Source: Kutzneria kofuensis (GTDB taxonomy: Bacteria; Actinomycetota; Actinomycetes; Mycobacteriales; Pseudonocardiaceae). Taken from it: DNA of 64,000 bases. The notes beneath the pieces were generated by a model. That model saw only the letters and a list, made by a program, of their open reading frames with translations. It did no database searches and was not told the origin of the DNA. Made by a program: the position numbers and the translations under genes. Shown here piece by piece: positions 9,210 through 45,432 of the stretch; position 1 is the stretch's first letter, and each line of letters opens with the position of its first letter. The DNA lies in assembly GCF_014203355.1 (NCBI RefSeq), contig NZ_JACHIR010000003.1:248001-312000 (forward strand). The letters are read 5' to 3'.

Positions 9210-10409
9210 GTGACCACCGGTGAACTGACGGCGTGCCCGTACCCGTTTCCCGAGGCGCCGGCCCTGGAGCTCGCGCCGGAATACGGGGAGTTCCGCCGCG
9301 CGTCCGGGCTGGCGCGGCTGGAGATGCCCTACGGCGGCCAGGCCTGGCTGGCGACCCGGCTGACCGACGTCAAGCTGGTGCTGGCCGACCCGCGGTTCAG
9401 CCGGGCGGCGGCGCTGGGTCGGGACATCCCGCGGACCATGCCCATGATCGAGTCGACGACAAACATCCTGGCCATGGACCCGCCCGAGCACAGCCGGGTG
9501 CGCCGCGTGGTGGCCAAGGCGTTCACCGCGCGCAACGTCGAACGGCTGCGGCCACGGGTGGCCGCGATCATCGACGACCTGCTGCGGCGGATGACCGACG
9601 GCAGGACGAGCGCGGACCTCGTCGCCGAGCTCGCGCTGCCGATGTCGGTCACCACCATCAGCGAGCTGCTCGGCGTGCCCGAGGACCAGCGGGACGAGTT
9701 CCACGAGTGGTCGACCACGGCCAGTGCGATCTCGGGCGCGAGCATCGACGAGATCGTCGCGGCCACCACCGCGCTGCGGGAGTTCCTGGCCGGACTGGCC
9801 GCCGAGCGCGCGAAGCGGCCGGCCGACGACCTCATCAGCACCCTGGTGACCGCCCGTGACGAGGACGGCCGGCTGACCGAGGAGGAAATGGTCTCCCTCG
9901 GTACGACGATCCTGTCGGCCGGCCACGAGACCACGGCCAACCAGCTCTCCGGCCACGTCTTCACGCTGCTGACCCAGCGCGAGTTGTGGCAGCGCCTGGT
10001 CGACGATCCCGACCTGGTTCCGTCGGCGGTCGAGGAGCTGCTGCGCCTGACGCCGCTGGGTGTCGTGACGTTCGCCCGCATCGCCAAGGAGGACGTCGAG
10101 GTCGGCGGCACGCTGGTGCGCGCGGGCGAGAGCGTCGTCATGCAGATCGCCGCGGCCAACCGGGACGAGGAGGTCTTCCGGCACGGTGACGAGCTGGACT
10201 TCGACCGCGAAGCCAACCCGCACATCGCGTTCGGTCACGGCGCGCACCACTGCCTCGGCGCGCCGCTGGCGCGGCTGGAACTCAACACCGCGCTGACGGA
10301 GCTGGTGCGCCGGCTGCCCCGGCTGCGGCTGGCGGTGCCGCCGAGCGAAGTCGTGTTCAAGAAGGGCGGCCTGCTGCGGGGCCCGGAGTCGCTGCCCGTC
10401 GCCTGGTGA
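9210..10409 (+). CDS. Cytochrome P450 (bacterial class I type)
   Basis: 399 residues, normal length for a soluble actinobacterial P450. Visible landmarks: the I-helix oxygen-activation motif AGHETT (about residue 235), the K-helix ExxR in EELLRL, and the heme-binding loop FGHGAHHCLG with the thiolate cysteine near residue 350. It should take electrons from a ferredoxin, but no ferredoxin or reductase gene is adjacent, so the redox partner must be elsewhere. The GTG start has TGAGGGG 7 bases upstream. It is a single-gene unit: operator-like boxes precede it and a strong hairpin follows. The substrate cannot be read from the sequence. Confidence 0.95.
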   Translation: MTTGELTACPYPFPEAPALELAPEYGEFRRASGLARLEMPYGGQAWLATRLTDVKLVLADPRFSRAAALGRDIPRTMPMIESTTNILAMDPPEHSRVRRVVAKAFTARNVERLRPRVAAIIDDLLRRMTDGRTSADLVAELALPMSVTTISELLGVPEDQRDEFHEWSTTASAISGASIDEIVAATTALREFLAGLAAERAKRPADDLISTLVTARDEDGRLTEEEMVSLGTTILSAGHETTANQLSGHVFTLLTQRELWQRLVDDPDLVPSAVEELLRLTPLGVVTFARIAKEDVEVGGTLVRAGESVVMQIAAANRDEEVFRHGDELDFDREANPHIAFGHGAHHCLGAPLARLELNTALTELVRRLPRLRLAVPPSEVVFKKGGLLRGPESLPVAW

Positions 10410-10416
10410 ACGCGAA

Positions 10417-10450
10417 ACACGGCGCCGTCCACACTGGGACGGCGCCGTGT
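10417..10450. terminator. Bidirectional intrinsic terminator hairpin
   Basis: A perfect 14-bp stem, ACACGGCGCCGTCC pairing with GGACGGCGCCGTGT, with a 6-base loop. It lies between two convergent genes (the P450 and the small Cys-motif gene), so it can stop transcription from both sides. Confidence 0.85.
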
Positions 10451-10481
10451 CTCGTTCCGCATCGGTCGATGTTCCGACCGA

Positions 10482-10694
10482 CTAGTGACGAGGGGCACCT
10501 CCGACGAGCTTGGCCAAACGATCGAACAAGCGGGCCGCCCGGGTGGCGGGCCGGGTCGGGCGGCACACGGGCTCGTACGTCCCGCAGTGCAACCGCTCCG
10601 CGCCGGTGCTGGTGGTCGCGACCACGGTCGCGTGGCCACAGCCCGGGCACGGGGCGAGAGTGCCATCCGGATCGGGAATGCCTAATACACTCAC
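10482..10694 (-). CDS. Small hypothetical protein with a CxxC knuckle
   Basis: 70 residues from GTG 10694, which has GGAGG 7 bases upstream. Residues around PCPGCGHA and the later LHCGTYEPVC give four cysteines that could form a zinc ribbon. A basic helical tail (RAARLFDRLAKLVG) follows. Third positions are mostly G/C in this frame, which supports it over the overlapping plus-strand frame. I do not recognise the family. A zinc-binding role is inferred only from the Cys spacing. Confidence 0.55.
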   Translation of the reverse strand: MSVLGIPDPDGTLAPCPGCGHATVVATTSTGAERLHCGTYEPVCRPTRPATRAARLFDRLAKLVGGAPRH

Positions 10695-10865
10695 CAGGCG
10701 GCCTCCAGGACCAGTCTGTCCATGCCCCCAGTGTCCCATCCCGGCCGTGGCGGCGGGCGTGGATCCCGCTCCCGGGCGCGTCGCCGGTCCGTGATCAACG
10801 CCGGATCTCCCGGTCGGGCCCGACGGTCACTGCTCGGTCCGCGTTTTCTGTGCTAGGCATGACGG

Positions 10866-11720
10866 ATGATCGAGGCGGCGACGGAAGTCCACGAGGCGGC
10901 GCGCCGGCGCGCCGAGTCCGCGGCCGAGCTTGCCGGCGTGACCGTGCGGATGCCGCACGAGTTACCCGAGCTGGAGCAGATCGCCGCTCTGTGCAACAAG
11001 GTGTGGCGGCCGGATCCGACGATGCCCGTGGTGACCGTGGAGTGGCTGCGCGTGCTCGCCCACGTCGACAACTATGTGGCGGCGGCGTATCGCGGCGAGC
11101 AGATGGTCGGCGCAACGGTGGCGTTCTTCGGCCCGCCGAACACCCGCAGCCTGCACTCGCACGTGACCGGCGTGCTGCCGGACGGCCAGATCCGCGGTGT
11201 CGGGTTCGCGCTCAAGACGCACCAGCGCGCATGGGCGCTGGACATCGGCGTCCGCACGATCGGCTGGACGTTCGATCCGCTGGTGTCCCGCAACGCGCAC
11301 TTCAACCTGGCCAAGCTGGGCGCGCGCGGCCGCGTGTACCTGGAGTCCTTCTACGGCGACATGCCGGACGAGCTGAACGCCGGCGACGAGAGCGACCGCC
11401 TGCTGGTGGAATGGGATCTCGCCGATCCGACGGTGGCGCGGGCACTGGACGGGAATCCGGCCGAGCGCGCGCCGGAAGCCTTGGTGGCGCTGGACATCGC
11501 CGGCGACGAGCGGCCGGTGCCGGGCGAGATCAAGGGCCGCTACGTGGAAGTCCGCATCCCGTCGGACATCTACGCCGTCCGCAAGGCGCGGCCGGAGACG
11601 GCGCTGCGCTGGCGGCTCGCGGTGCGGGACGTGCTCGGCGGCCTGCTCGCCGACGGCGCCGTGATCACGGGATTCAGCCGTGAGGGTGGGTATCTGCTGG
11701 ACCGCGGGGAGGACGCGTGA
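10866..11720 (+). CDS. GNAT-like acyltransferase (COG3375 type), partner of the N-acylamino acid racemase
   Basis: 284 residues. The fold resembles the GNAT superfamily: a segment of VGATVAFFGP-type beta strands, then the acceptor loop HSHVTGVLPDGQIRGVGFALK, then TIGWTFDPLVSRNAHFN. Proteins of this type sit beside N-acylamino acid racemase genes in several bacteria. In Geobacillus the GNAT protein succinylates D-amino acids, the racemase inverts the N-succinyl product, and a hydrolase removes succinate. Here the stop overlaps the racemase start by 4 bases (GTGA), which supports the same division of labour. No deacylase gene is in the window. The start is ATG 10866, without a strong ribosome-binding site. 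Cytoplasmic; the acyl donor is not determined. Confidence 0.75.
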   Translation: MIEAATEVHEAARRRAESAAELAGVTVRMPHELPELEQIAALCNKVWRPDPTMPVVTVEWLRVLAHVDNYVAAAYRGEQMVGATVAFFGPPNTRSLHSHVTGVLPDGQIRGVGFALKTHQRAWALDIGVRTIGWTFDPLVSRNAHFNLAKLGARGRVYLESFYGDMPDELNAGDESDRLLVEWDLADPTVARALDGNPAERAPEALVALDIAGDERPVPGEIKGRYVEVRIPSDIYAVRKARPETALRWRLAVRDVLGGLLADGAVITGFSREGGYLLDRGEDA

Positions 11721-12829
11721 AGATCGAGGGCCTTGAGCTGCGCTGGGCGTCGCTGCCGCTGGTGGGCACGTTCCGGACGTCGTTCGGCAGCGAGGACCGC
11801 CGGGACCTGTTGCTGCTGCGGCTGGTCACCGATCAGGCCGAGGGCTGGTCGGAGTGCGTGGCGATGGCGGCGCCGGTGTATTCGCCGGAATACGTGGACG
11901 CGGCGGCCCATGTGATCGAGCACGTGCTGTTCCCGGAGGTGGCCGCACTGTCCGATCCGGACGTTCACGCGGTTTCCCGTGCCATGCAACGGTTCCACGG
12001 GCACCAGATGGCGAAAGCCGCGCTGGAAACGGCTTTCCTGGACGCGGAGCTGCGCTCGCTCGACCTGTCGCTGGCCCGCTATCTCGGCGGGGCTGTGGAT
12101 CGGGTCGCCTCCGGGGTGTCGGTCGGCATCATGGACACGATCCCGCAGCTGCTCGACGCCGTGGCCGGCTATCTCGACCAGGGCTACGTGCGGATCAAGC
12201 TGAAGATCGAGCCCGGCTGGGACGTGGAGCCGGTGCGCGCGGTGCGGGAGCGGTTCGGCGACGCCATCCCGCTGCAGGTCGACGCCAACACCGCCTACAC
12301 CGTCGGCGACGCCCGGCAGCTGGCCAAGCTGGACGACTTCGACCTGCTGCTGATCGAGCAGCCGCTGCCCGAGGACGACCTGCTCGGCCATGCCCAGCTG
12401 GCCCGGCAGGTGCGCACCCCGATCTGCCTGGACGAGTCGATCACCTCGGCCAAGGTCGCGGCCGACGCGATCAGCCTCGGCGCGTGCTCGATCGTCAACA
12501 TCAAGCCCGGCCGGGTCGGCGGCTACCTGGAGTCCCGCCGGGTGCACGACGTCTGCCGGGCCCACGGGGTGCCCGTGTGGTGCGGCGGCATGCTGGAGAC
12601 CGGCATCGGGCGGGCGGCCAACCTGGCGCTGGCCTCGCTGCCCGGGTTCACCCTGCCGGGCGACACCTCGGCGTCCGACCGGTACTACCACCGGGACGTG
12701 ACCGAGCCCTTCACGCTGGAGAACGGGCACGTCCGCGTGCCGACCGGCCCGGGAATCGGTGTCACGCCCGTACCGGAGATTCTGCACGAACTGACGACGG
12801 ACACCCGCTGGCTGCCGGCAAACGGGTGA
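11717..12829 (+). CDS. N-acylamino acid racemase / o-succinylbenzoate synthase (enolase superfamily)
   Basis: 370 residues with all enolase-superfamily residues of the MenC/NAAAR group: Lys161 and Lys163 in KLK, metal ligands Asp189, Glu214 and Asp239, and Lys263 in NIKPGRVGG. As far as I recall, these are the same numbers as in the Amycolatopsis N-acylamino acid racemase, and the C-terminal LPGDTSASDRYY segment also matches that enzyme. It interconverts D- and L-N-acylamino acids through an enediolate on a divalent metal. It could also make o-succinylbenzoate for menaquinone, but no other men gene is nearby and the GNAT partner favours D-amino acid conversion. The GTG start overlaps the upstream stop. 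An NRPS cluster that uses D-residues lies 15 kb away, but its E domains already supply the D-configuration. Confidence 0.92.
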   Translation: MKIEGLELRWASLPLVGTFRTSFGSEDRRDLLLLRLVTDQAEGWSECVAMAAPVYSPEYVDAAAHVIEHVLFPEVAALSDPDVHAVSRAMQRFHGHQMAKAALETAFLDAELRSLDLSLARYLGGAVDRVASGVSVGIMDTIPQLLDAVAGYLDQGYVRIKLKIEPGWDVEPVRAVRERFGDAIPLQVDANTAYTVGDARQLAKLDDFDLLLIEQPLPEDDLLGHAQLARQVRTPICLDESITSAKVAADAISLGACSIVNIKPGRVGGYLESRRVHDVCRAHGVPVWCGGMLETGIGRAANLALASLPGFTLPGDTSASDRYYHRDVTEPFTLENGHVRVPTGPGIGVTPVPEILHELTTDTRWLPANG

Positions 12830-12979
12830 CGAAAAGGAATTGATTGTTCTAGACCTCCGGTGAGCTGGCCGATTCATAAATGTATACGTGGGTGTGTGCT
12901 GGGTCTCTCCGCCTTGCGCCACTGAATCGAGTCTGCTCGAATAATGAGGTACAGTCGCCTTGTCACTGGGGGCAAGAAA

Positions 12980-13393
12980 ATGCAGTACCTTCGCCGGGCC
13001 GGCGTTCTCGCCGCGTCCGCCGCCGCCGTCATCGCCCTCTCCGCCGGGGCAGCGCACGCCAACCCGCCGTCGCTGTCGGACGTCGTCACGGACGCCACCC
13101 TGTCCACGACGACTTTCGTTCCGGGCCAGCAGGTCCACGCGACCTGGAAGTTCAACACCGCGTACGCGCCACAGGTGACCGCCGTCCAACTGTGGCTCGC
13201 CCACTCCACGGGGATGGGCCACGCGCCCAACACGCTCATCACCGCGAGCGTCGATCCGAAATCCGGGGAAGCCGACTTCACGGTGCCGAACGTGACGCCG
13301 AGCAAGCCCGGCAACATCTGGATTTTCGACGTCATCTGGGACGACAACGGCCGCCAGACCGAGTTGTCGCTGACGAACGTCACCGTGGCGTGA
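12980..13393 (+). CDS. Small secreted protein with one Ig/Kre9-like beta domain
   Basis: 137 residues from ATG 12980, which has GGGGGC 7 bases upstream. The N-terminus is a clear Sec signal peptide: basic YLRRAG, a hydrophobic alanine-rich core, and a cleavage site at AHA/NP. The mature part of about 105 residues is predicted all-beta (FVPGQQVHATWKF, VQLWLAH, NIWIFDVIWDD, ending LTNVTVA). The pattern is reminiscent of Kre9/KNH-like or carbohydrate-surface Ig folds, but I would not assign it firmly. There is no anchor, so it is probably released. The upstream 150 bases are AT-rich and probably hold its own promoter; a hairpin follows. Confidence 0.75.
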   Translation: MQYLRRAGVLAASAAAVIALSAGAAHANPPSLSDVVTDATLSTTTFVPGQQVHATWKFNTAYAPQVTAVQLWLAHSTGMGHAPNTLITASVDPKSGEADFTVPNVTPSKPGNIWIFDVIWDDNGRQTELSLTNVTVA

Positions 13394-13395
13394 GA

Positions 13396-13442
13396 TGACC
13401 GGGTCGGCGTAGCCGCCGCGCCCGCCCGGTCACGACATTCTT
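13396..13442 (+). terminator. Terminator hairpin after the secreted protein gene
   Basis: Outer stem TGACCGGG/CCCGGTCA (13396-13403 and 13435-13442) enclosing a GC-rich inner region, then CATTCTTCCCCTTTTT. It lies immediately after the stop codon, with a T-rich tail. Confidence 0.6.
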
Positions 13443-13516
13443 CCCCTTTTTCGTCGGCCGCGTTAGTTCAGGCGATTTACTTTGCCCGAGCGGTCGGCGC
13501 CAATAGCCGAATACGA

Positions 13517-13556
13517 CAGCGAGGCCGCGGGGCACACGCCCCCCGCGGCCTCGCTG
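13517..13556. terminator. Second strong hairpin in the intergenic gap
   Basis: A perfect 16-bp stem (13517-13532 with 13541-13556) built on GAGGCCGCGGGG, with an 8-base loop. No T-tract follows on the plus strand. It may isolate the secreted-protein gene from the HTH operon. The rest of 13394-13710 holds only the operator-like repeats listed separately. Confidence 0.55.
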
Positions 13557-13648
13557 CTGTGCGGGCGGCCTTTTCGGCGCCTCATGGGCGCGCCTCCGCG
13601 CCCGCGCCGCGGCCCGAGATCGCACTCGGCCTGCTGCGGACACTACCT

Positions 13649-13698
13649 TATCCTTCCCTATCCGTCCCTATTTGATTGCAGATGGGGAAGGATGAGGT
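13649..13698. promoter_or_regulatory. Operator-like direct and inverted repeats before the HTH gene
   Basis: Two adjacent 10-bp direct repeats, TATCCTTCCC (13649-13658) and TATCCGTCCC (13659-13668), are followed by an inverted copy, GGGAAGGATG (13685-13694). All lie within 65 bases of the start of an HTH regulator. BldC/MerR-like single-HTH proteins can bind head-to-tail on direct repeats, so autoregulation is plausible. Confidence 0.45.
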
Positions 13699-13710
13699 AT
13701 TCTGCCCCAC

Positions 13711-14130
13711 GTGTCCCAGGAGATGTACTCGGTCGAGCAGGTCGCGGACCTGCTGGGCCTGCACGTGCGCACCGTCCGCAACTACGTGCGGGAGGGGCGG
13801 CTCAAGGCCGTGCGGATCGGCAAGCAGTACCGGATCGCCCGCGACGACCTCGACGCCTTCACCGGCGCCGAGTCCAAGGTCCGGCGCACCCGGCACGTCG
13901 AGGTGTCGAGCATCGTCGAGATCGACGCGATCAGCCGGGAGGACGCCGGCCGGATCGCGATGGGCGCGGTGGGGGCCGCCAACACGCGCGGCTACCAGGA
14001 GCGGCCGCTGCGGATCGAGACGGCCTACGACGAGGTCCGCGGCCGGCTGAAGCTCATCGTCCTGGGGGACCTGACCACCACCGCGGAGCTGCTGCGGTGG
14101 GTCGCACTGCTCGCGGAGGGGGAGACGTGA
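13711..14130 (+). CDS. Excisionase/MerR-type helix-turn-helix regulator with extra C-terminal domain
   Basis: 139 residues. Residues 5-55 form a winged HTH of the excisionase/BldC type (YSVEQVADLLGLHVRTVRNYVREGRLKA, then the wing IGKQYRIARDDLDAF). Residues 65-139 form a separate domain I do not recognise, ending in a helix that may sense a ligand or dimerise. The likely start is GTG 13711; ATG 13723 is an alternative. The stop overlaps the start of the next gene by 4 bases, so it leads a three-gene operon with an alpha/beta hydrolase and a DUF4180 protein. Repeats just upstream could be its own binding site. Confidence 0.85.
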   Translation: MSQEMYSVEQVADLLGLHVRTVRNYVREGRLKAVRIGKQYRIARDDLDAFTGAESKVRRTRHVEVSSIVEIDAISREDAGRIAMGAVGAANTRGYQERPLRIETAYDEVRGRLKLIVLGDLTTTAELLRWVALLAEGET

Positions 14131-16584: not shown

Positions 16585-17283
16585 TCACCGGGACTGCGGC
16601 GCCGGACCGACCTGGCCCGCATTGACCGGCACGGTCGCGTAGCCGTTGATGACCACGTCGTCGAGGCGGGTCGGCTCGCCGCTCAGCGCCAGGTTCGGGA
16701 ACCGTTGGCGCAGCTTGGTGATCGCGGCCCCGACCAGCTCCTCGTGATCGCCGAGCGTGAGGTGGCCGGTGGTGTTGCGGCCGAGATCGAGCTCGTCGGG
16801 CCGGTCGAACATCACCGGGTCGCGGTTGGCCGAGCCGACCAGCACGGCGATCGTCTCGCCGGCCTCGATGTCGACGCCGGCCAGGCTGATCGTCTCGTGC
16901 GCGGTGCGCAGCGCCATGCCGTAGGGGCCGTCGTGCCGGGAGAGCTCGGCCACGTTCACCCCGACCTGCTCGGGATGCCGGAGCAGGTCGACCACGCCGT
17001 TGGCGATCAGGTGCGCGACCGCGTTGTCGCCGGCGACGGGCCGGGCGAAGTCCGCCAGCAGGTCGAAGTCGCCGTCCAGCCGGGCCAGGACGGCGTCGAC
17101 GTCACCCGGCACCGGCACCGCCGGTGACGGCGTGAGGGCGGCAAGAACGTCGGCGTACCGGCTGATCAGCCACACCCGCCGCCCGTCCGGCAACACGGCC
17201 TCGCAGATCGGCGCCTGCGACCGCAGCCACCGGTGCATGGTGTGCCGGTCGTGGATGTACTTGTCGTCGAGCATCACGGCCAC
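16585..17283 (-). CDS. Shortened cytochrome P450-like protein lacking the heme cysteine
   Basis: 232 residues against about 400 for a normal P450. P450 hallmarks that remain: an N-terminal segment ending WLISRYADVLAAL, an ExxR-like ELSR, the SANRDPVMFDRPDELDLGR meander region, and a C-terminal RFPNLALSGEP strand. The I-helix AGxxT block is absent, and the FGxGxHxCxG heme loop is replaced by LTLGDHEELVGAA without any Cys. It therefore cannot ligate heme as a P450. Heme-less P450 homologues such as EryCII and DesVIII act as partners of glycosyltransferases, so a helper role for the P450 domain encoded just upstream is possible; a decaying gene is the alternative. GTG 17283 lies 8 bases after the fusion gene stop (same operon); ATG 17274 is an alternative start. 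Confidence 0.75.
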   Translation of the reverse strand: MAVMLDDKYIHDRHTMHRWLRSQAPICEAVLPDGRRVWLISRYADVLAALTPSPAVPVPGDVDAVLARLDGDFDLLADFARPVAGDNAVAHLIANGVVDLLRHPEQVGVNVAELSRHDGPYGMALRTAHETISLAGVDIEAGETIAVLVGSANRDPVMFDRPDELDLGRNTTGHLTLGDHEELVGAAITKLRQRFPNLALSGEPTRLDDVVINGYATVPVNAGQVGPAPQSR

Positions 17284-17291
17284 GCGGCATG

Positions 17292-20200
17292 CTATCCCTG
17301 CGTCGACAACGGAAGGCCGGCCAGGCCACGAAGCGCCGGGTCCGGCCGGAACACGGGCTCCTCGGCCAGCCGCAACCGGGGGAACCGCGCGGCCAGCGCC
17401 GGGAACAGCACCTGGCCCTCGATGCGGGCCAGCGCCGCGCCGATGCAGTAGTGCACGCCGGCCCCGAAGGTGAGGTGCCCGGCGGCGTCGGGCCGGCACA
17501 GGTCGAGTCGGTCCGGGTCGGGGTAGCGGCCGGGATCGCGGTTGGCCGCGCCGAGCACTGGAAACACCAGCTCACCGGCCTTGATCCGCTTCCCGCCGAG
17601 CTCAAGGTCGACGGTCGCCTGCTGCGGCGTGATGATCGGGGCCGGCGTGTCGTAGCGGAGCAGCTCCTCGGCGGCGGTGCGGGCGATGGACGGATCGGTG
17701 CGCAGCAGTTCGAACTGGTCGGGGTTGCGCAGCAACGCCAGCACACTGTTGCCGATGTAGTTGGCGGTGGTCTCCAGGCCGGCGTTGATCAGCGAGATCA
17801 CGTTGGCGACCATTTCGTCCTCGTTCGCCCAGCCGCCGGCGAACCGCTCGTCGACGGTCAGCCCGCGCACGTACGTGGTCAGCTCGTCGGCCGCGGCCAT
17901 CGCCCGGTACGCCACCGCCGCCGGATCCTCGCCGAACTGGGCCTGACCCAACACGGCCATGATCTCGCGACCCCACCGTGCGACTTGTGGCTGGTCGGCT
18001 CGCGGCACGCCGACGAGATCCATCACCACGCGGCCGGGCAACGGGTACGCCACCTCGGACATGAACTCCACCGGCCCCGGCCGGTCGATCTGGGCCAGCA
18101 TCTCGGCGACGGTCTTCTCGACGTCGGCCCGCAACGCCTCCATCGCCCGGCCGGTGAAGCTGCCGGCCAGCACCCGCCGCATGCGCTCGTGCCGCTCGCG
18201 GTTGCTGAACGGCAGGCTGGAGTCGAGCCAGTCGATGAACGGCCGCAGGTCGTCCAGGACGTCCGCGGGCAGCCGGGGCAGCAGCGTCGACGTCGACGGG
18301 CGGATCACCGACGGGTCGCGGAGCAGCGCCGACACCTCCGCGTGCCGGGTCAGCACCCAGCCGTCGAGCGCCTCGTCGCGGTACACCGGCGCCAGGTCGC
18401 GCAGCAGGTGATAGAAGGGGTAGGGATCCCGCAGGAAGTCCGGGTCCATCGGGTTGAGGTGGATGCTCGACTCGATCCGGGCCTGCTCCGGCGGTCGGGG
18501 CGCGGGGATCCGGGTGATGCAGTCGCGGACGGCGGCGGCGAGCGCGGTCAGGTCCGGCGGCGCGAACGCCGTGAAGTGGTTGCCGGGCACGGTGATCACC
18601 GACAGGCGGCCGAGGGACACGTGTTCCCAGCCGTTGGCCGGATCGTCCAGGCGCAGCTGGATGTGCCGGTCGTCGAACAGCACCTGTGGGAAGCCGCCCG
18701 CGGCCTTGATCAATGTGACGGCAAGATCGGACGGCCCCGGCTCGTAGCGCACGACCGCTTCGAGTTGGGCCTGGTAGACGCGCATGATGGCGGCGATGTG
18801 CTCGTCCGCCGGCCCGCTCGCGCCGAGGAACCGGCCCAGCTCGCGGCGCTGCTCGGCGGGGGAGAGCGACTGGTCGACGCGCCGGCGCGGGGCGTCCGCG
18901 CCGCGGAAGGCGAGGGTGCGCATCCGCCACAGTTCCTCGATGATGGCCACGTCGTCGGCCGGCGGCTCGGGCTGGCCGGGCTCGGCCAGGTAGGTGTCGA
19001 TCAGGATCACCTGCGCGACCTCGTCGCCCTGCGCCCGCAGCACGCGGCCGACCTCGTACGCCACAAGGCCGCCGAAGGAGTGCCCGCCGACCAGGTACGG
19101 CCCGTGCGGCTGGATCGCCTTGATCTCCTCGACGTGGCGCCGGGCCAGTGCCGACACCTCGTCCAGCGGCTCGTCGACGCCGTCGAAACCGGGGCTCTGC
19201 AAGGCATAGAACGTCTGCTGCTGGCCGATCGCCCGCGCCAGCGGCAGCAGGTAGTAGGCCGCGCCGACCGCGCCGCCGACGCAGAAGAACGGCCGGGGCG
19301 GCGTCAGCGCCAGCGCCAGGCTCTGCGGTCGGGCGACTTCGGCGCCGTGCTCGTCGAGATGCCGGGCGACAGCGTCCAAAGTGGGCAGTTCGAGCAGCAG
19401 CGAATGCGGAATCCGATAGCCGAGCCGCTCCGACAGGTCGGCCAGCACCGTCGCCATCGACAGCGACTCCAGACCCAGCGTCGCGACCGGCGCGTGTGGG
19501 TCGACCGGGCGCTTGGTTTCGGCGGAAACGCGCCGTGCCAACCACTCCGTGAGGTCGGTGCCGAAGTGGCGGGCGACGAACTCCTGGGCATAGTCGAGGT
19601 TGCACTCGACCAGCTCGAACGCCGGCAGGCTGCCGACGTGATACGTGCGGTGCCGGCCCTGGAGTTCCTCGATCCTGTCGTAGATGCCGTCGGCGAGGTC
19701 GGCGCAGCCGAAGCGCGGCATGTACTTCCACCGCCGCTCCTCGAACACCTCGGCGACGTCCGCCGGCCCGTAGGAGTAGCAGGCACACACCTCGCTGTCG
19801 GGATACCGGTGGTGGAACGAGACGTCGCCGTACAGCGTGAAGGCGAGCCGCGGCTGGTGCGGCGCGGTGCAGAACGTCGTGCGGTAGTCGTGATAACGGA
19901 TCCTCGACGCGATGTCCCGTTCGTCCTCGCGGGCGTCCAGCACCGGCAACAGCTGGTCCAGCGGCACCGTCAGCACAAGGTCGTCGAACTGCAGCGTCTC
20001 GGCGCCGACGGTCACCAGCACCCGGTTGCCGTGCCGGCGGATCGCGGAGATCGTCACCCCGCAACGGACATCCTTCAGCGAGGCGGCGACGCGGTCCCAC
20101 ACCTGCCCGAAGCCGCCGGCGACGGTGAACGGGCGGGTCAGCCGGTCGCACAGCAGGCCGGTCATCTCGGCGTACTTGACCAGGTACAGAGCCGGCAGAT

Positions 20201-20651
20201 CGCCGCGGAGGCGGCCGTAGCCGGAGGACGTGTAGCCCAACCCGAACGCGTCCTCGAACTCCGGCAGCTCGGTGAGCCACTCCCGCGCCGGCATCGCCAG
20301 CGCACGGGCCGAATGCGCCAACCCGGCCGTCGCGATGTCCGGGAACCGCTCGGCGCGCAGCTCCTTGTACCGCTGCCGGCCCTCCTGCGAGAGGAACGGC
20401 TGCCGGGTGACCGGCGTGATGTCCTCAGTGGACAGGCCGAGCTCGGTGAGCAGTTCCCGCAGGCGTTTGTACATGCCGGTGCACACGTGGCCGCCGACAT
20501 CGAACACGTGCCCGTCCAGCGTCACCGAAGCACACTTGCCGCCGACATGTCCGGCCGCTTCCAGCACCGTCACGGCATGCCCGAGCCGCTCCAACTCCCG
20601 GGCGACGGTCAGGCCGCTGACTCCCGCCCCCACAACACAAACTCGCCTCAC
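17292..20651 (-). CDS. Four-domain fusion: FAD-dependent oxidoreductase - carrier protein - thioesterase - cytochrome P450
   Basis: 1119 residues in one frame. (1) Residues 1-375: flavin amine-oxidase/desaturase-like oxidoreductase with the dinucleotide motif VVGAGVSGLTVAREL (about 6-20) and an EAAGHVGGK flavin loop. (2) About 385-440: a carrier domain with the phosphopantetheine Ser396 in LGLESLS. (3) About 455-715: an NRPS/PKS-type thioesterase with Ser525 in GHSFGG and His692 in PGNHF. (4) About 730-1119: a complete P450 with AGLETT (957-962) and heme loop FGAGVHYCIG (Cys1069). It should hold an acyl group on the carrier while the flavin and heme domains oxidise it, then release it hydrolytically. 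The GTG start overlaps the FAAL gene stop (GTGA), so the FAAL is the likely loader. I know no characterised enzyme with this order. Product unknown. Confidence 0.9.
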   Translation of the reverse strand: MRRVCVVGAGVSGLTVARELERLGHAVTVLEAAGHVGGKCASVTLDGHVFDVGGHVCTGMYKRLRELLTELGLSTEDITPVTRQPFLSQEGRQRYKELRAERFPDIATAGLAHSARALAMPAREWLTELPEFEDAFGLGYTSSGYGRLRGDLPALYLVKYAEMTGLLCDRLTRPFTVAGGFGQVWDRVAASLKDVRCGVTISAIRRHGNRVLVTVGAETLQFDDLVLTVPLDQLLPVLDAREDERDIASRIRYHDYRTTFCTAPHQPRLAFTLYGDVSFHHRYPDSEVCACYSYGPADVAEVFEERRWKYMPRFGCADLADGIYDRIEELQGRHRTYHVGSLPAFELVECNLDYAQEFVARHFGTDLTEWLARRVSAETKRPVDPHAPVATLGLESLSMATVLADLSERLGYRIPHSLLLELPTLDAVARHLDEHGAEVARPQSLALALTPPRPFFCVGGAVGAAYYLLPLARAIGQQQTFYALQSPGFDGVDEPLDEVSALARRHVEEIKAIQPHGPYLVGGHSFGGLVAYEVGRVLRAQGDEVAQVILIDTYLAEPGQPEPPADDVAIIEELWRMRTLAFRGADAPRRRVDQSLSPAEQRRELGRFLGASGPADEHIAAIMRVYQAQLEAVVRYEPGPSDLAVTLIKAAGGFPQVLFDDRHIQLRLDDPANGWEHVSLGRLSVITVPGNHFTAFAPPDLTALAAAVRDCITRIPAPRPPEQARIESSIHLNPMDPDFLRDPYPFYHLLRDLAPVYRDEALDGWVLTRHAEVSALLRDPSVIRPSTSTLLPRLPADVLDDLRPFIDWLDSSLPFSNRERHERMRRVLAGSFTGRAMEALRADVEKTVAEMLAQIDRPGPVEFMSEVAYPLPGRVVMDLVGVPRADQPQVARWGREIMAVLGQAQFGEDPAAVAYRAMAAADELTTYVRGLTVDERFAGGWANEDEMVANVISLINAGLETTANYIGNSVLALLRNPDQFELLRTDPSIARTAAEELLRYDTPAPIITPQQATVDLELGGKRIKAGELVFPVLGAANRDPGRYPDPDRLDLCRPDAAGHLTFGAGVHYCIGAALARIEGQVLFPALAARFPRLRLAEEPVFRPDPALRGLAGLPLSTQG

Positions 20652-22369
20652 GCGGGCACGCCCTCCCGGGACAGAAACTCCTCCCGGCACGCGCTGCGCC
20701 GGATCTTTCCGCTGGTCGTCTTGCGCACCAACCCCTGGGGCCCGACCACCACCCGTGCGCACGCCAGCTGGTGATCCCGCTGCACGCACTCCGTCACGGC
20801 CTCGACGATCGCCCGCTCGTCGGCCCGGCGGTTCCGCGTCTCCACCAGCACGACCAGCCGCTCGCCGTCCTCGGCCGGCACCGAGAACGCCGCCACCCCG
20901 CCCGGCCGGATCGCCGGATGGCAGTCGCGCACGCTCGCCTCGATGTCCTCCGGGTGCAGGTTCCGGCCACGCACGATGATCAGGTCCTTCAGCCGCCCGG
21001 TGACGAACAGCTCGTCCCCGTGCAGGAAACCGAGGTCACCGGTGCGCAGGTAGTGGGTCGGGTCCTCGCCGCCGGCCACCCGGGCCCGGAAGGTTCGCTC
21101 GGTCTGCTCGGGCCGGCCGTGGTAACCGAGGGCCTTGGTCGCCGAGCTGACCCAGATCTCCCCGACCCGGCACGGCGGCAGCACCTCGTGCGTGTCCGGA
21201 TCGACGATGCGCAGCCGGGCGTCGAACTTGGTCAGCCGCCCGCAGCCGACCAGGGTCGTCGCCGGCCGGTCGGGCAGCGCCGGCACCGCGCGGCCCGCTT
21301 CCAGGCTGACCCGGTCCAGGCGCAGCGTGCCGCGGCCGCCCATGGTGACGCTGACCGTGTGCTCGGCCAGCCCGTACGCGGCGTAGAAGGCGTCCCGGCG
21401 CAGGCCGGTGCCGGCGAACGCGTCGAAGAAGGCCGCCACGGTGTCCGGCCGGATCGGCTCCGCCGCCGACATGAACACCCGGACGGAGCCCAGGTCCCAG
21501 CCGGCCCGTTGTTCCACAGTCGTCTTGCGTACCGCCAGGTCGAAGGCGAAATTCGGGGCCGCGGTGTGCGTCGCCCGCACCCGGGACATCACCTCGAACC
21601 ACACGGCCGGGCGACGCAGGAACGCCAGCGGCGACAGCAGGCGGGTGTGCGCGTTGCCGGCCAGCGTGGACATGATCACGCTGATCAGGCCGAGGTCGTG
21701 GTACTGCGGCAGCCAGAACACGCCGCGCGCCCGCTCACCCAGCCCCAGGTCGACGGCGTTCGCGGTGACCTCGGCGATCAGGTTGCCGTGCGTGACGACC
21801 ACTCCGCGTGGCGATCCCGTTGAGCCGGACGTGTACTGCAGCAGCGCCGGCTCGTCGGGATCCACCGGCGAACGCCACCCGACCGGAGCAGTCGCCGGGC
21901 GGCAGTTGTCGGTGTGCCGCCAGGTGATCCGCGGCCAGCTCGGCTTCGTCCGGTCGAACACGCCGGCCACCGCGCCGACGCTGCGCGCCCGGTCGTACGC
22001 CCTGGTGGTGAGCACCGCCCGCGGCCGGCAGTCGGCCAGCACGGCCGCGAAGGCCGGCAGCGTCTGGCGCAGCCGGAACGGGTCCGGCGGGTACACCGGC
22101 ACCGGCACGGCGCCGGCGATCAGGCAGCCGACCAGGGCGATCACGAACTCCGGGCCGGGCGGGTAGACCAGCACCGCGCGGTCGCCGGGCTCGAAACCCC
22201 AGCGCCGCAGGGACTCCGCCACCGCCTCGCCCCGGGCCACGGTCCCGGCGGCGGTCAGCGACACGCGGTCGGCGCCGTCGTCGTCGACGAAGGTGAACAG
22301 TGTTCGGTCCGGGCTGTCCTGGGCGAGCGCGCGCAGCGACGCCACCGCCGAATACTCCAAGCCAGTCAC
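20648..22369 (-). CDS. Fatty-acyl-AMP ligase (FAAL)
   Basis: 573 residues, the usual FAAL length. It activates a fatty acid as acyl-AMP and passes it to a carrier protein rather than to CoA. The AMP-binding core YTSGSTGSPRGVVVTH, the WLPQYHDLGLI motif and the YGLAEHTVSV block are FAAL-like, and the C-terminal hinge GRLKDLIIVRGRNLHPEDIE and KTTSGKIRR are complete. Upstream in-frame codons are poor coding sequence, so GTG 22369 (VTGLEYSAV), preceded by GAGG, is preferred. The stop overlaps the start of the oxidoreductase-carrier-TE-P450 fusion by 4 bases, so its acceptor is very likely that carrier domain. Chain length and substrate cannot be read. Confidence 0.93.
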   Translation of the reverse strand: MTGLEYSAVASLRALAQDSPDRTLFTFVDDDGADRVSLTAAGTVARGEAVAESLRRWGFEPGDRAVLVYPPGPEFVIALVGCLIAGAVPVPVYPPDPFRLRQTLPAFAAVLADCRPRAVLTTRAYDRARSVGAVAGVFDRTKPSWPRITWRHTDNCRPATAPVGWRSPVDPDEPALLQYTSGSTGSPRGVVVTHGNLIAEVTANAVDLGLGERARGVFWLPQYHDLGLISVIMSTLAGNAHTRLLSPLAFLRRPAVWFEVMSRVRATHTAAPNFAFDLAVRKTTVEQRAGWDLGSVRVFMSAAEPIRPDTVAAFFDAFAGTGLRRDAFYAAYGLAEHTVSVTMGGRGTLRLDRVSLEAGRAVPALPDRPATTLVGCGRLTKFDARLRIVDPDTHEVLPPCRVGEIWVSSATKALGYHGRPEQTERTFRARVAGGEDPTHYLRTGDLGFLHGDELFVTGRLKDLIIVRGRNLHPEDIEASVRDCHPAIRPGGVAAFSVPAEDGERLVVLVETRNRRADERAIVEAVTECVQRDHQLACARVVVGPQGLVRKTTSGKIRRSACREEFLSREGVPA

Positions 22370-22820: not shown

Positions 22821-22908
22821 GCACCCTGGCGGACCCGTCCGCCCGGGGCGAGTGTCGATCCCCTGCTGGCCGCCGCTCAGGGTTGCGTGGTGACTAAGGT
22901 TGCGAGAC

Positions 22909-23742
22909 ATGAGTCCAGCGTCGTGTCCGGAGTGCGACGGGCCGTCGGCCCGGCCGCTGCGAGTGCTGGCCGTGGACGACGAGCTGCCCGTGCTCGAGGA
23001 GATCGTCTACCTGCTCGGCGCCGACCCGCGGGTGGGCACCGCCGAGGGCGCGCAGGACTCCACCGAGGCGCTGCGGCTGCTGCACCGCGCCGCCGACGCC
23101 GACCGGCCGGTCGACGCCGTGTTCCTGGACATCAAGATGCCCGGCCTCAACGGCATGGAGCTGGCCCGGGTGCTGACCCGGTTCGCCAGCCCACCGGCGC
23201 TGGTCTTCGTCACCGCCGACGACCAGTCCGCTGTGGAGGCGTTCGAGCTGAAGGCGCTGGACTACGTGCTCAAGCCGATCCGGCCGCAGCGGCTGTCCGA
23301 GGCCCTGCACCGGGTGGCGCACAAGGTGATCGCCAGTTCGGTGCACGTGCCGGCGCAGCAGGTGGCCGAGCCGCCGGCCGTCACGCCCGACGACGTCATC
23401 CCGGTCGAGCTGGGCGGCATCACCCGCTTCCTGCGGCTGGCCGACGTGCGCTACGCCGAGGCGCAGGGCGACTACGCGCGGCTGCACACCGCGAACGGCA
23501 GCTACCTGGTCCGGACGCCGCTGACCGGGCTGGAGGAACGCTGGCGCGACGCCGGCTTCGTGCGCATCCACCGCAGCCACCTGATCGCGCTGGCGCACGT
23601 CGAGGAGCTGCGGCTGGACGGCGGGCAGCTGTCGGTGAAGATCGGCGGCGCGATGCTGACCGTGAGCCGGCGGCACACCCCGCAGCTCCGGGACCTGCTG
23701 ATCAAGCGGGCCCGGCCGCACGCGATGCGAGCGGGCAAGTGA
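22909..23742 (+). CDS. LytTR-family response regulator
   Basis: 277 residues. The receiver domain (about 18-135) has the acidic pair DD at 23-24, phospho-acceptor Asp74 in VFLDIKMPG, Thr in FVTADDQ, and Lys in DYVLKPIRP. The C-terminal LytTR DNA-binding domain (about 160-265) begins VELGGITRFLRLADVRY and carries the conserved RIHRSHLIAL segment. It should be phosphorylated by the LytS-type kinase at the end of the same operon. Typical targets of LytTR/LytS pairs are uptake genes for small carboxylates, which fits the symporter encoded between them. The stop overlaps the next start by 4 bases. ATG 22909 is preferred over TTG 22900. Confidence 0.93.
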   Translation: MSPASCPECDGPSARPLRVLAVDDELPVLEEIVYLLGADPRVGTAEGAQDSTEALRLLHRAADADRPVDAVFLDIKMPGLNGMELARVLTRFASPPALVFVTADDQSAVEAFELKALDYVLKPIRPQRLSEALHRVAHKVIASSVHVPAQQVAEPPAVTPDDVIPVELGGITRFLRLADVRYAEAQGDYARLHTANGSYLVRTPLTGLEERWRDAGFVRIHRSHLIALAHVEELRLDGGQLSVKIGGAMLTVSRRHTPQLRDLLIKRARPHAMRAGK

Positions 23743-24119: not shown

Positions 24120-25847
24120 GTGAGCAGCACCTACTCCGCGGTCTTCGTGGCCCTGGTGCTCGTCGCCGCCGTGCTGATCGGCGGCTACGGCCTGCGGATC
24201 TCCCGCACGACCTCGGACTTCTTCGTCGCGTCGCGGAGCGTGTCGCCGTGGTGGAACGCCTCGGCGATCGGCGGCGAGTACCTGTCGGCGGCGTCGTTCC
24301 TCGGCGTCGCCGGGCTGATCTTCGCGTACGGGCCCGACATGCTGTGGTACCCGATCGGCTACACGGTCGGGTATCTGGTGCTGCTGGCGCTGGTCGCGGC
24401 CCCACTGCGGCGGTCGGGGGCGTACACGGTGCCGGACTTCGCCGAGGCGCGGCTGGAGTCGCGGCGGGTGCGGCGGATGGCCAGCGTGCTGTCGGTCGGC
24501 ATCGGGTGGCTGTACCTCGTGCCGCAGCTGCAGGGCGCCGGTTTGACGCTGACGACGGTGACCGGCGCGCCGGGGTGGCTGGGAGCGTTGCTGGTGGCGA
24601 CGGTGGTCGCGGTGAACGTGATGGCCGGTGGGATGCGGAGCATCACTTTCGTGCAGGCCGTGCAGTACTGGCTGAAGCTCACCGCGTTGGCGGTGCCGGT
24701 GGTGTTCCTGGTGCTGGCGTGGCGAGATGCGGGCGCGCCGTCCCTGGACGGCTCGGTGCCGGCGGTGTTTTCCAGCGACACCAAGGTGACCGTGCAGACC
24801 ACTGTGGACGTCGAGGTGCCGTCCCGGGTGTCGGTGGTCGTGAACGGCACCGTGGACGGGCATTCGGTGGCCGGCTCCACGGTGTCGCTGGGGCCGGGAC
24901 CGCATCGGGTTTCCGCCGGAGCTGTGTTGGACTTTCCGGCTCACTCCGTTGTGCCGCAGGTGAAGGGCATTCCCACCGACACGAACGCGATGTGGGCGCA
25001 GCCGCTGGGCGGCGAGGGACACGGCGACCCGTTCTACGTCACGTACTCGCTGATCATCGCGACCTTCCTGGGGACGATGGGTCTGCCGCACGTGGTGGTT
25101 CGCTTCTACACCAACCCGAACGGCCGGCAGGCCCGGCGGACCACTGTCGTCGTGCTGGCCCTGCTCGGCGTCTTCTACCTGCTGCCGCCGGCCTATGCCG
25201 CCCTCGGGCGGCTCTACACGCCCGAGCTGTTGTTGACCGGGCAGACCGACGCCGTGGTGCTGGTACTGCCGTCCCGGCTCGTCGGCGGCACGTTGGGGGA
25301 GTTGCTCGGCGCGCTGGTGGCCGGCGGGGCGTTCGCGGCGTTCCTGTCGACGTCGTCGGGGCTGACGTTGTCGGTTGCCGGCGTGCTGTCGCAGGACGTG
25401 TTGCTGCTGCGGGGACTTCGCGGGTTCCGGCTGGCGGCGTTCTTCGCGGCCGTCGTGCCGTTCGGCGCGGCGCTGCTGGTCTCCGGGATGTCGTTGGCAG
25501 ACGTGGTCGGGTTGGCGTTCGCCGTCGCCGCGTCGTCGTTCTGCCCCTTGCTGTTGCTGGGGATCTGGTGGCGGCGGCTCACCCCGTTCGGCGCGATCGC
25601 CGGCATGGCGGCCGGCGGGGGACTGGCGTTGGCGGCGGGGCTGGTGACGCTGCTGATCCCGCCGCGTTCGGGGCTGGTCTACGATCTGCTCAGCCGGCCG
25701 GCGGCGTGGAGCGTGCCGCTGGGCTTCGCGGTGATGATCGTGGGGTCGCTGCTGACGCCCCGGTCCGTGCCGGCCTCGGTGAACCGGACCATGGTGCGGC
25801 TGCACGCCCCGGAGGCGCTCGGGCTGGCCCAGGAGGAGACGCCGTGA
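24120..25847 (+). CDS. Sodium/solute symporter family protein (acetate/monocarboxylate permease-like)
   Basis: 575 residues with about 13 transmembrane segments. SSS-family signatures include the N-terminal TTSDFFVASRSVSPWWNA, the GGEYLSAASFLG sodium-site region, and the ASSFCPLLLLGIWWRR motif typical of ActP-like cation/acetate symporters. An extra-membrane loop (about 220-300) is longer and more beta-like than the core and separates the helix groups, as in other actinobacterial ActP homologues. It imports a small organic acid with sodium. It lies between a LytTR regulator and a LytS kinase in one operon, so uptake and sensing are probably linked. GTG 24120 start; the stop overlaps the kinase start. 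Confidence 0.9.
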   Translation: MSSTYSAVFVALVLVAAVLIGGYGLRISRTTSDFFVASRSVSPWWNASAIGGEYLSAASFLGVAGLIFAYGPDMLWYPIGYTVGYLVLLALVAAPLRRSGAYTVPDFAEARLESRRVRRMASVLSVGIGWLYLVPQLQGAGLTLTTVTGAPGWLGALLVATVVAVNVMAGGMRSITFVQAVQYWLKLTALAVPVVFLVLAWRDAGAPSLDGSVPAVFSSDTKVTVQTTVDVEVPSRVSVVVNGTVDGHSVAGSTVSLGPGPHRVSAGAVLDFPAHSVVPQVKGIPTDTNAMWAQPLGGEGHGDPFYVTYSLIIATFLGTMGLPHVVVRFYTNPNGRQARRTTVVVLALLGVFYLLPPAYAALGRLYTPELLLTGQTDAVVLVLPSRLVGGTLGELLGALVAGGAFAAFLSTSSGLTLSVAGVLSQDVLLLRGLRGFRLAAFFAAVVPFGAALLVSGMSLADVVGLAFAVAASSFCPLLLLGIWWRRLTPFGAIAGMAAGGGLALAAGLVTLLIPPRSGLVYDLLSRPAAWSVPLGFAVMIVGSLLTPRSVPASVNRTMVRLHAPEALGLAQEETP

Positions 25848-27019
25848 CGACCGCTGTGCTGGCGGGGCTGCTGTGCGTGATGACTCTTGCCGTGCTGGCT
25901 TTGCTGTGGCGGCTGCGGAGCGCGCTGCGCGAGTCCGGCAATGCCATCGACCGGGCCACGTACGAGACTCTGCACACGGCCTGGTCCGCCGCGCCGCCGC
26001 TGCGGGCCGGGCTGGTGCCCGAGGCCGCCCGCCGGTCCGCGCCGCATCTCCGTGCCCTGCTGGACACGCCGGCGCTGGCCTTGACCGACGGCGAACGGGT
26101 TCTGGCCTGGGACGGCATAGGTGAGCAACACTCGGATCAGGTTCTGGAGATCATAGCGCCGGCGTTCACCCACGGCCGTTCCCACGTGACGCGGGTCGAG
26201 TGCGACGATCCCGAGTGCCCGCTGCACTTCGCGGTGATGGTTCCGTTGCATGTGGACGGTCGCATCGCCGGCGTGCTCATCGCCTACGCCGTCGAGGCCG
26301 CCGCCGGGCTCGTCCGCGCCGCCAACGAAGTCGCCCGGTGGGCCGGCGGACAGCTGGAGTTGGCCGAGCTGGACCGGTCCAAGCAGCGGTTGATCGAGGC
26401 CGAGGTGCGGGCGCTGCGGGCGCAGATCTCCCCGCACTTCATCTTCAACTCGCTCACCGCCATCGCCTCGTACGTGCGGACCAACCCCGAGCGGGCCCGC
26501 ACCCTGCTGCTCGACTTCGCCGAGTTCACCCGCTACTCGTTCCGGCGGCACGGCGAGTACACCACCCTCGCCGAGGAGCTCAGGTCCATCGACCAGTACC
26601 TGTCGCTGGAGCGCGCCCGCTTCGGCGACCGGCTCCAGGTCACCCTGCAGATCGCCCCCGAGGTGCTGCCCGTCGCCGTGCCCTTCCTGTGCATGCAGCC
26701 GCTGGTGGAGAACGCCGTGCGGCACGGCATGGAGGGCAAGGTCGGGCCCGGCCACATCGCCATCCAGGCCGCCGACGCCGGCGCCGAGGCCCACATCAGC
26801 ATCGAGGACGACGGCGTCGGCATGGATCCGGACCGGCTGCGCCGCACCCTGGCCGGCGAGCCCGACGAGCAGACCGGCATCGCCCTGGGCAACATCGACG
26901 AGCGCCTCCGCCAGGTCTACGGCGACGAGTACGGGCTGGTGGTCGAGACGGCGGTCGGCGCCGGCACCAAGATCCACCTGCGGGTGCCCAAGTACCGCCC
27001 CGGCATCCACGCCGACTGA
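25844..27019 (+). CDS. LytS-type sensor histidine kinase
   Basis: 391 residues. One N-terminal transmembrane helix (about 5-24), then a GAF-like sensing region (about 60-160) with Cys119 and Cys125 (VECDDPECPLH). The His_kinase domain has phospho-acceptor His198 in QISPHFIFNSL. The ATPase domain has the N-box PLVENAVRHG, G1 DDGVGMD and a G2-like GIALGNIDERL. This is the kinase type that pairs with LytTR regulators. It shares an operon with such a regulator and a symporter, which suggests that the transported acid or the transporter itself is the signal. GTG 25844 overlaps the symporter stop. No clear terminator follows. Confidence 0.92.
   Translation: MTTAVLAGLLCVMTLAVLALLWRLRSALRESGNAIDRATYETLHTAWSAAPPLRAGLVPEAARRSAPHLRALLDTPALALTDGERVLAWDGIGEQHSDQVLEIIAPAFTHGRSHVTRVECDDPECPLHFAVMVPLHVDGRIAGVLIAYAVEAAAGLVRAANEVARWAGGQLELAELDRSKQRLIEAEVRALRAQISPHFIFNSLTAIASYVRTNPERARTLLLDFAEFTRYSFRRHGEYTTLAEELRSIDQYLSLERARFGDRLQVTLQIAPEVLPVAVPFLCMQPLVENAVRHGMEGKVGPGHIAIQAADAGAEAHISIEDDGVGMDPDRLRRTLAGEPDEQTGIALGNIDERLRQVYGDEYGLVVETAVGAGTKIHLRVPKYRPGIHAD

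Positions 27020-28095: not shown

Positions 28096-45432
<17,337 letters not shown>

Follow-up and report, generated by a model that had tools for sequence, protein, structure and literature searches.

A fatty acyl-AMP ligase gene and an FAD-carrier-thioesterase-P450 fusion in Kutzneria kofuensis: a candidate carrier-tethered fatty acid tailoring line

A three-gene unit on the minus strand

The window analyzed here is a 64-kb stretch of DNA from Kutzneria kofuensis (positions 248001-312000 of contig NZ_JACHIR010000003.1, within a 10.4-Mb genome). Three successive genes on its minus strand encode a fatty acyl-AMP ligase (FAAL), a fusion protein made up of a flavin adenine dinucleotide (FAD) domain, an acyl carrier protein (ACP) domain, a thioesterase (TE) and a cytochrome P450, and a reduced P450-like protein (Table 1). 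The GTG start of the fusion gene overlaps the FAAL stop, and the GTG of the P450-like gene at 17283 lies 8 bases past the fusion stop. These overlapping or adjacent genes had been picked out in a first-pass annotation made from the letters alone, which described them as a FAAL-fed, carrier-based acyl-tailoring line containing a multidomain fusion; Pfam domains, motifs, and gene order bear out this description. A 1161-residue open frame lies exactly opposite the fusion gene on the plus strand (17289-20774) and is presumably a high-GC shadow frame.

Table 1. Features of the three-gene unit and its neighbors in the window
Feature	Position	Strand	Basis or remark
Reduced P450-like protein, 232 residues	16585-17283	-	PDB P450 matches and alignment to fused P450; no heme cysteine, ExxR kept
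Fusion FAD-ACP-TE-P450, 1119 residues, GTG start	17292-20651	-	Pfam, motifs
Cytochrome P450 domain (AGLETT, EELLR, Cys1069)	17292-18458	-	PF00067, 76.6 bits
Type I thioesterase domain (Ser525/Asp552/His692)	18531-19292	-	PF00975, 98 bits
Acyl carrier domain (phosphopantetheine Ser396)	19356-19547	-	PP-binding, 38.1 bits
FAD domain, PAI homologue	19551-20651	-	2b9w matches, single sequence and profile
Fatty acyl-AMP ligase (FAAL)	20648-22369	-	AMP-binding Pfam match, NCBIfam, PDB sequence matches
LytTR response regulator	22900-23742	+	Conserved neighbor
Sodium/solute symporter, LytTR neighbor locus	24120-25847	+	SSF; monocarboxylate/acetate symporter families below cut-off
Sensor histidine kinase, LytTR neighbor locus	25850-27019	+	His_kinase and HATPase_c
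Nonribosomal peptide synthetase (NRPS), 5778-residue open frame	28096-45432	+	First 2968 residues: 3 adenylation, 4 condensation, 3 carrier stretches

The FAAL gene stops at 20648 and has two candidate starts, GTG 22369 and TTG 22360. The best PDB sequence matches of its product are 7r7f (E 5e-105), 3kxw, FadD23, FadD32, and FadD28, and its top NCBIfam models are fatty-acid-AMP ligases, the best of which scores 406 bits against a whole-protein cut-off of 775. By sequence, the product is nearer to FAALs than to acyl-CoA ligases, and this putative FAAL would load the carrier domain of the fusion.

Pfam models match the fusion in the order Amino_oxidase/NAD_binding_8, PP-binding, Thioesterase, and p450, and all four domains retain intact catalytic motifs, as claimed in the first reading, the carrier Ser396 included. 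The FAD domain contains the dinucleotide-binding GxGxxG as GAGVSG at residue 8, the TE contains GHSFG (Ser525), Asp552, and GNHFT (His692), and the P450 contains ExxR (EELLR, 995), the I-helix AGxxT (AGLETT, 957), and FxxGxxxCxG (FGAGVHYCIG, 1062) with the heme ligand Cys1069. The best PDB sequence match of the TE domain is an NRPS (4zxh, E 1e-18), and the best matches of the P450 are bacterial P450s, including P450BioI with ACP (3ejb, E 1e-57).

The identity of the FAD domain has been probed with both single-sequence and profile searches of the PDB. The single sequence matches 2b9w (E 4.9e-30) in three segments that together cover the length of the chain, and an FAD-family profile built from 24 members (out of 26 places tried) matches the same entry end to end (E 2.3e-65; profile 2-412 to chain 8-423). 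The runner-up profile match, the monoamine oxidase entry 8p84, reaches E 1.2e-25 and covers only positions 3-248 of 416. The PDB name of 2b9w is 'putative aminooxidase', and we take this entry to be the polyunsaturated fatty acid isomerase PAI of P. acnes. Judged by these alignments, the FAD domain is a full-length homologue of PAI, substrate domain included; consequently, generic oxidation is less likely as its predicted reaction than the shifting of double bonds along a polyunsaturated chain. The 'flavin oxidoreductase' of the first reading is better described as a PAI-like flavin domain. The idea that Gln takes the place of Arg88 of PAI to suit a thioester substrate was not upheld, as the alignments disagree and the consensus of fused and free-standing members keeps Arg.

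The third gene is over-extended to 304 residues in the open reading frame listing, and its product is 232 residues from GTG 17283. This protein has no Pfam match at E 0.001, matches P450s in the PDB (7wex, E 5e-23), and aligns to the fused P450 at both ends with ExxR retained. The middle of the protein (from the N-terminal part to the I helix) is absent, and so are the AGxxT motif and the cysteine loop; the sole cysteine is residue 27, and the heme-ligand loop is missing from all five copies. Thus, the first-pass term 'heme-less P450 partner' is right as to the missing heme cysteine and wrong as to a whole P450. The nearest NCBIfam model is TIGR04515, a P450-derived glycosyltransferase activator, and this assignment was rejected with a score far under the cut-off (78.5 against 343 bits).

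Relatives of the fusion and their surroundings

Relatives were drawn from samples of genomes, with matches in 17 of 200 genomes of the family (E 1e-15), 5 of 394 of the class (E 1e-45), and 7 of 250 of f19 (E 1e-45). An FAD domain joined to a carrier is found at 19 loci: five in Kutzneria, six in the genus g8 (three of them in genome G192), one each in G182 and G114, and six in f19 (G560, G379, G614, G673, G672, and G711). No match to the FAD-ACP part was found in plasmid records at E 1e-30. The FAD-ACP-TE-P450 order is shared by 11 loci across two genera, one of which is interrupted in the P450 (L061, g8), so this order is not peculiar to a single genome. The fusion occupies one open frame in four other Kutzneria genomes and in five of the six g8 loci, and is absent from two of the seven Kutzneria genomes. 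Because the fusion is found again as an open frame in other genomes, a frameshift artefact of the assembly was ruled out and the fusion is genuine.

In Kutzneria sp. 744 (L011), the frame stays open across the TE/P450 junction although a stretch of approximately 220 bases there matches in another frame, and dN is inflated in this copy as a result. The mean Nei-Gojobori ratios of nonsynonymous to synonymous substitution (dN/dS) are 0.20 for the FAD domain, 0.31 for the ACP, 0.19 for the TE, 0.26 for the P450, and 0.23 for the FAAL, calculated from six pairs each in four genomes and omitting the L009 fusion and the L011 FAAL, which were missed by the motif search.

The remainder of the protein varies among the relatives. 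A fused P450 is present at 11 of the 19 FAD-ACP loci, and seven carry an N-terminal domain of approximately 330 residues, which replaces the P450 except at L063, where both are found; the copies in G182 and G673 have neither. The L063 gene (8933-13531, plus strand) encodes a five-part fusion of allene-oxide-synthase-like, FAD, ACP, TE, and P450 domains. A FAAL gene adjoins the FAD-ACP gene at 17 of the 19 loci (the exceptions are L058 and G711), and in G560 and G672 an extra, separate P450 gene adjoins the FAAL gene. A partial P450 match was also seen at a contig end in G801. Free-standing FAD genes occur in the genera g17 and g71, and at the LytTR locus of G060 a broken FAD gene is present as two pieces in different frames (L071, 9848-10353). 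In the FAD-domain family tree, the Kutzneria and most g8 domains group with the free-standing ones of g17 (84/96) and PAI forms a very long branch; based on this grouping, domain loss in the g17 genes is plausible, not proven. Two free-standing relatives in g71 genomes (L077, L078) lie beside genes for a GFO/IDH/MocA oxidoreductase, a PhyH dioxygenase, and a transport permease.

Genes resembling those of polyunsaturated fatty acid (PUFA) synthases adjoin several relatives. Intact PfaA-, PfaC-, and PfaD-like genes are found near the FAD-ACP gene at four of the 19 loci (two in G192, and those in G114 and G711), and in the copies scanned, the matches to the PfaA and PfaD models score above the cut-offs. 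In G711, the PfaA-, PfaC-, and PfaD-like genes, a TE match, and the FAD-ACP gene all run in one direction, and in one G192 copy the PUFA-synthase genes sit exactly between the FAAL gene and the LytTR regulator. The same gap contains PfaA-derived remnants in G141 and G169, with ACP and dehydratase parts and no ketoreductase core, and measures 511-572 bases in Kutzneria. The gap at L060 holds an open, 459-residue PfaA-derived gene (12528-13907, plus strand) with a carrier and a dehydratase and no ketoreductase core, which may be more than a remnant. The chance of at least four of 19 loci lying within 25 kb of a PfaD gene is 1.5e-7, a rough estimate with a background of 79 PfaD matches in 200 genomes and unevenly covered flanks (only approximately 10 kb for L009-L011). 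Genome-wide co-occurrence with PfaD was rejected as support (4 of 11 FAD-ACP genomes versus 60 of 200), leaving adjacency alone to back this link. The first reading had stated that there is no polyketide synthase; this holds beside the K. kofuensis copy and fails for the relatives that adjoin PUFA-synthase genes.

The N-terminal domain of the relatives has no Pfam match. In a PDB search with the G614 copy, the only matches at E up to 1 are to the coral allene oxide synthase-lipoxygenase (1u5u, E 7e-11, and 3dy5). With residue roles for the coral allene oxide synthase (cAOS) as given in PMC5617202, the heme residues R64 and R102 and the proximal Y353 are retained in all seven domains, H67 in six, and N137 in five.

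A third association involves lipoxygenase (PF00305), which is rare in the family (over the cut-off in 10 of 200 genomes). Lipoxygenase genes are present in all five unit-bearing Kutzneria genomes and in neither of the two Kutzneria genomes that lack the unit. Across the family sample, they are found in 7 of 17 FAD-positive versus 3 of 183 FAD-negative genomes (Fisher 8.9e-7 by genome). Seven of the matches are strong and belong to the five Kutzneria genomes and to two genomes of g17 in which the FAD gene is free-standing; the three weaker ones are all in FAD-negative genomes. The K. kofuensis lipoxygenase gene (L153, 8568-10295, plus strand, own genome, C1) is complete-looking, with a 575-residue open frame whose best PDB matches are bacterial lipoxygenases.

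Next to the unit, the plus-strand locus of a LytTR regulator, a symporter, and a histidine kinase was considered as a dedicated regulator and rejected. LytTR homologues are found in all 16 genomes tested, which have no fusion match or belong to other genera; thus, the regulator is probably housekeeping and its linkage to the unit positional. The unit itself is a lone operon with no export or resistance genes called beside it. Elsewhere in the window (9210-12829, plus strand), a P450 gene and an enolase-superfamily (MR_MLE) gene, together with intervening genes, recur in other Kutzneria loci.

A proposed route and its alternatives

On a fine balance, we favor the reading that the three genes form a tailoring line for ACP-tethered polyunsaturated fatty acids of an oxylipin type. 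The sequence directly shows how the genes are ordered, which domains and motifs they encode, the homology to PAI, the conservation of the unit, and the associations described above; for the substrate, the order of steps, the reaction of each domain, the product, and the role of the P450-like protein, we infer the following scheme. First, the FAAL would activate a free fatty acid, supplied by uptake, by release from lipids, or by prior dioxygenation by the genome's lipoxygenase, and load it onto Ser396 of the fusion. Next, the PAI-like FAD domain would move double bonds by reversible hydride transfer to give a conjugated acyl-ACP, and the P450 would hydroxylate or epoxidize the tethered chain. 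Finally, the TE would free the product as a free acid or lactone; a free oxidized fatty acid, as suggested in the first reading, is a candidate product. The reduced P450 may serve as a non-catalytic partner, for example as a stabilizer. The associations with PUFA synthases, cAOS-like domains, and lipoxygenases are three lines that point to polyunsaturated substrates.

Several observations weigh against this reading. No PUFA synthase adjoins the Kutzneria units and no PfaD gene is found in four of the five unit-bearing Kutzneria genomes, so the substrate in Kutzneria is a guess; in K. kofuensis, no PfaA-, PfaC-, or PfaD-like match was found in the 64-kb window, and a genome-wide search at E 1e-10 gave no PfaD. 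The PfaD gene is also unenriched genome-wide, as given above for the family sample. T66 of cAOS is retained in none of the seven N-terminal domains. The lipoxygenase gene is not near the unit, no lipoxygenase was found in the 12 searched unit genomes outside Kutzneria, and, as genomes are not independent, the overlap at the genus level is two of four genera (P 0.077); counting the seven strong matches alone gives P 0.014 with a threshold chosen after seeing the data. At the position of the carboxylate-binding Arg88 of PAI, the window copy has Gln in the single-sequence alignment, is unaligned in another, and faces Arg in the profile consensus, relative to which it is approximately 15 residues shorter in this region. 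The setting of the two free-standing g71 genes is a non-lipid one and hints at another substrate, which suggests that the FAD family is not always a lipid enzyme. Additionally, the AlphaFold2 models are poor, with mean predicted local distance difference test (pLDDT) values of 39.1 for the FAD domain and 38.5 for the P450-like protein (four sequences each).

The strongest alternative, which we consider unlikely yet worth serious attention, is that the FAD domain acts as an acyl-ACP dehydrogenase or oxidase whose substrate is a saturated or mono-unsaturated fatty acid; the P450 would then oxidize the chain, and a free oxidized acid would be released. The Amino_oxidase family matched by Pfam generally includes oxidases and desaturases, FAAL substrates are commonly saturated fatty acids, and no PUFA synthase adjoins the Kutzneria copies. 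The full-length match to PAI, which tops the profile search by 40 orders of magnitude, argues against this alternative, as do the PUFA-synthase and cAOS-like partners of the relatives.

It is rather improbable that the product of the line is an acyl building block used by a neighboring assembly line such as the NRPS of the window. That gene lies 5.7 kb from the FAAL gene, and polyketide synthase or NRPS genes are near other copies (G182 and one G192 copy), but the fusion contains a TE of its own and lacks a condensation domain. Furthermore, the scanned part of the NRPS opens with an adenylation domain rather than a lipid-accepting condensation domain, and the gene lies past the histidine kinase locus, oriented opposite to the unit.

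Still less probable, in our estimate, is that the P450-like gene is a decaying duplicate without a role. Its product lacks the heme ligand and the oxygen-activating motif, and no copy was found beside the unit at the loci examined outside Kutzneria, those of g8 included. In contrast, the gene follows the fusion, here by 8 bases, in all five Kutzneria loci and is open with the same deletions in each. The three aligned copies are 72-83% identical to the window copy, and the mean Nei-Gojobori dN/dS of 0.37 (10 pairs, five genomes) shows that the gene is under purifying selection.

Finally, it is very unlikely that the line serves to detoxify or break down polyunsaturated fatty acids or their hydroperoxides instead of making a signal or antibiotic: a lipoxygenase and several fatty acid desaturases (six PF00487 matches) occur in the same genome and the operon stands alone without export or resistance genes, but carrier tethering with dedicated loading and release would be costly, and the dedicated PUFA synthases linked to relatives suggest synthesis.

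Known systems and the place of the unit

The logic of the unit resembles that of several known systems. Bacterial polyyne clusters contain a FAAL, an ACP, desaturases, a TE, and sometimes a P450, and, as proposed for Kutzneria, a free fatty acid is loaded by the FAAL, modified while tethered to the carrier, and released by the TE. In those clusters the proteins are separate and the desaturases are di-iron membrane enzymes, whereas the Kutzneria line has a soluble PAI-like flavoprotein and a P450 fused to the carrier. The nikkomycin pair NikP1/NikQ consists of an adenylation-carrier-TE protein and a P450, which oxidizes a carrier-bound substrate prior to release by the thioesterase, an order that the fusion may share; the substrate there is an amino acid, the P450 is separate, and no flavin isomerase is involved. 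The coral catalase-related allene oxide synthase-lipoxygenase (1u5u, 3dy5) is resembled by the N-terminal domain of the relatives; the coral protein has no carrier, and the Kutzneria fusion has a P450 in place of the cAOS-like domain.

PAI itself, the full-length counterpart of the FAD domain, is a single free-standing domain that acts on free linoleic acid (PMC13365329), whereas the Kutzneria domain is fused to an ACP, a TE, and a P450. The pfa-like PUFA and secondary lipid synthases (PMC3098273, PMC13291983) are adjoined by four relatives of the fusion, but not by the Kutzneria units, and the accessible parts of these two papers mention no FAAL, P450, or PAI-like fusion. The nearest hint comes from PMC13291983, which mentions a cyanobacterial pfa-like operon that encodes a hydrolase in addition to two FAD-dependent oxidoreductases. 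A published characterization of the FAD-ACP-TE-P450 architecture was sought, and none was found in the open-licence literature, a scope outside which most subscription papers fall.

We regard the unit as a variant of FAAL-fed, carrier-bound fatty acid tailoring, and an oxylipin assembly line is the bolder case. Tentatively, and with somewhat less than even confidence, it is proposed that the unit and its relatives represent an undescribed class of bacterial oxylipin assembly lines. In this class, chains made by a PUFA synthase, or lipoxygenated chains captured by a FAAL, would be held on a carrier fused to a PAI-type isomerase and a heme domain, and a built-in TE would release signals or antibiotics. 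The predicted heme domain would be allene-oxide-synthase-like in some lineages, a P450 in others, and both in one (L063). In Kutzneria, a PUFA synthase at the locus would have been lost or would never have been present, and imported or lipoxygenated chains would have become the substrate instead.

The oxylipins of animals, plants, and fungi derive from free fatty acids. If the proposal is correct, oxylipin-like chemistry held on a carrier would be new for bacteria, and a self-contained enzyme for loading, isomerizing, oxidizing, and releasing would be at hand. As the system comprises a FAAL and one soluble protein, the idea is directly testable by intact-protein mass spectrometry. If soil actinobacteria use a carrier-tethered route of this kind, it would connect oxylipin chemistry with a logic like that of polyketide synthesis and would point to unrecognized lipid signals or antibiotics.

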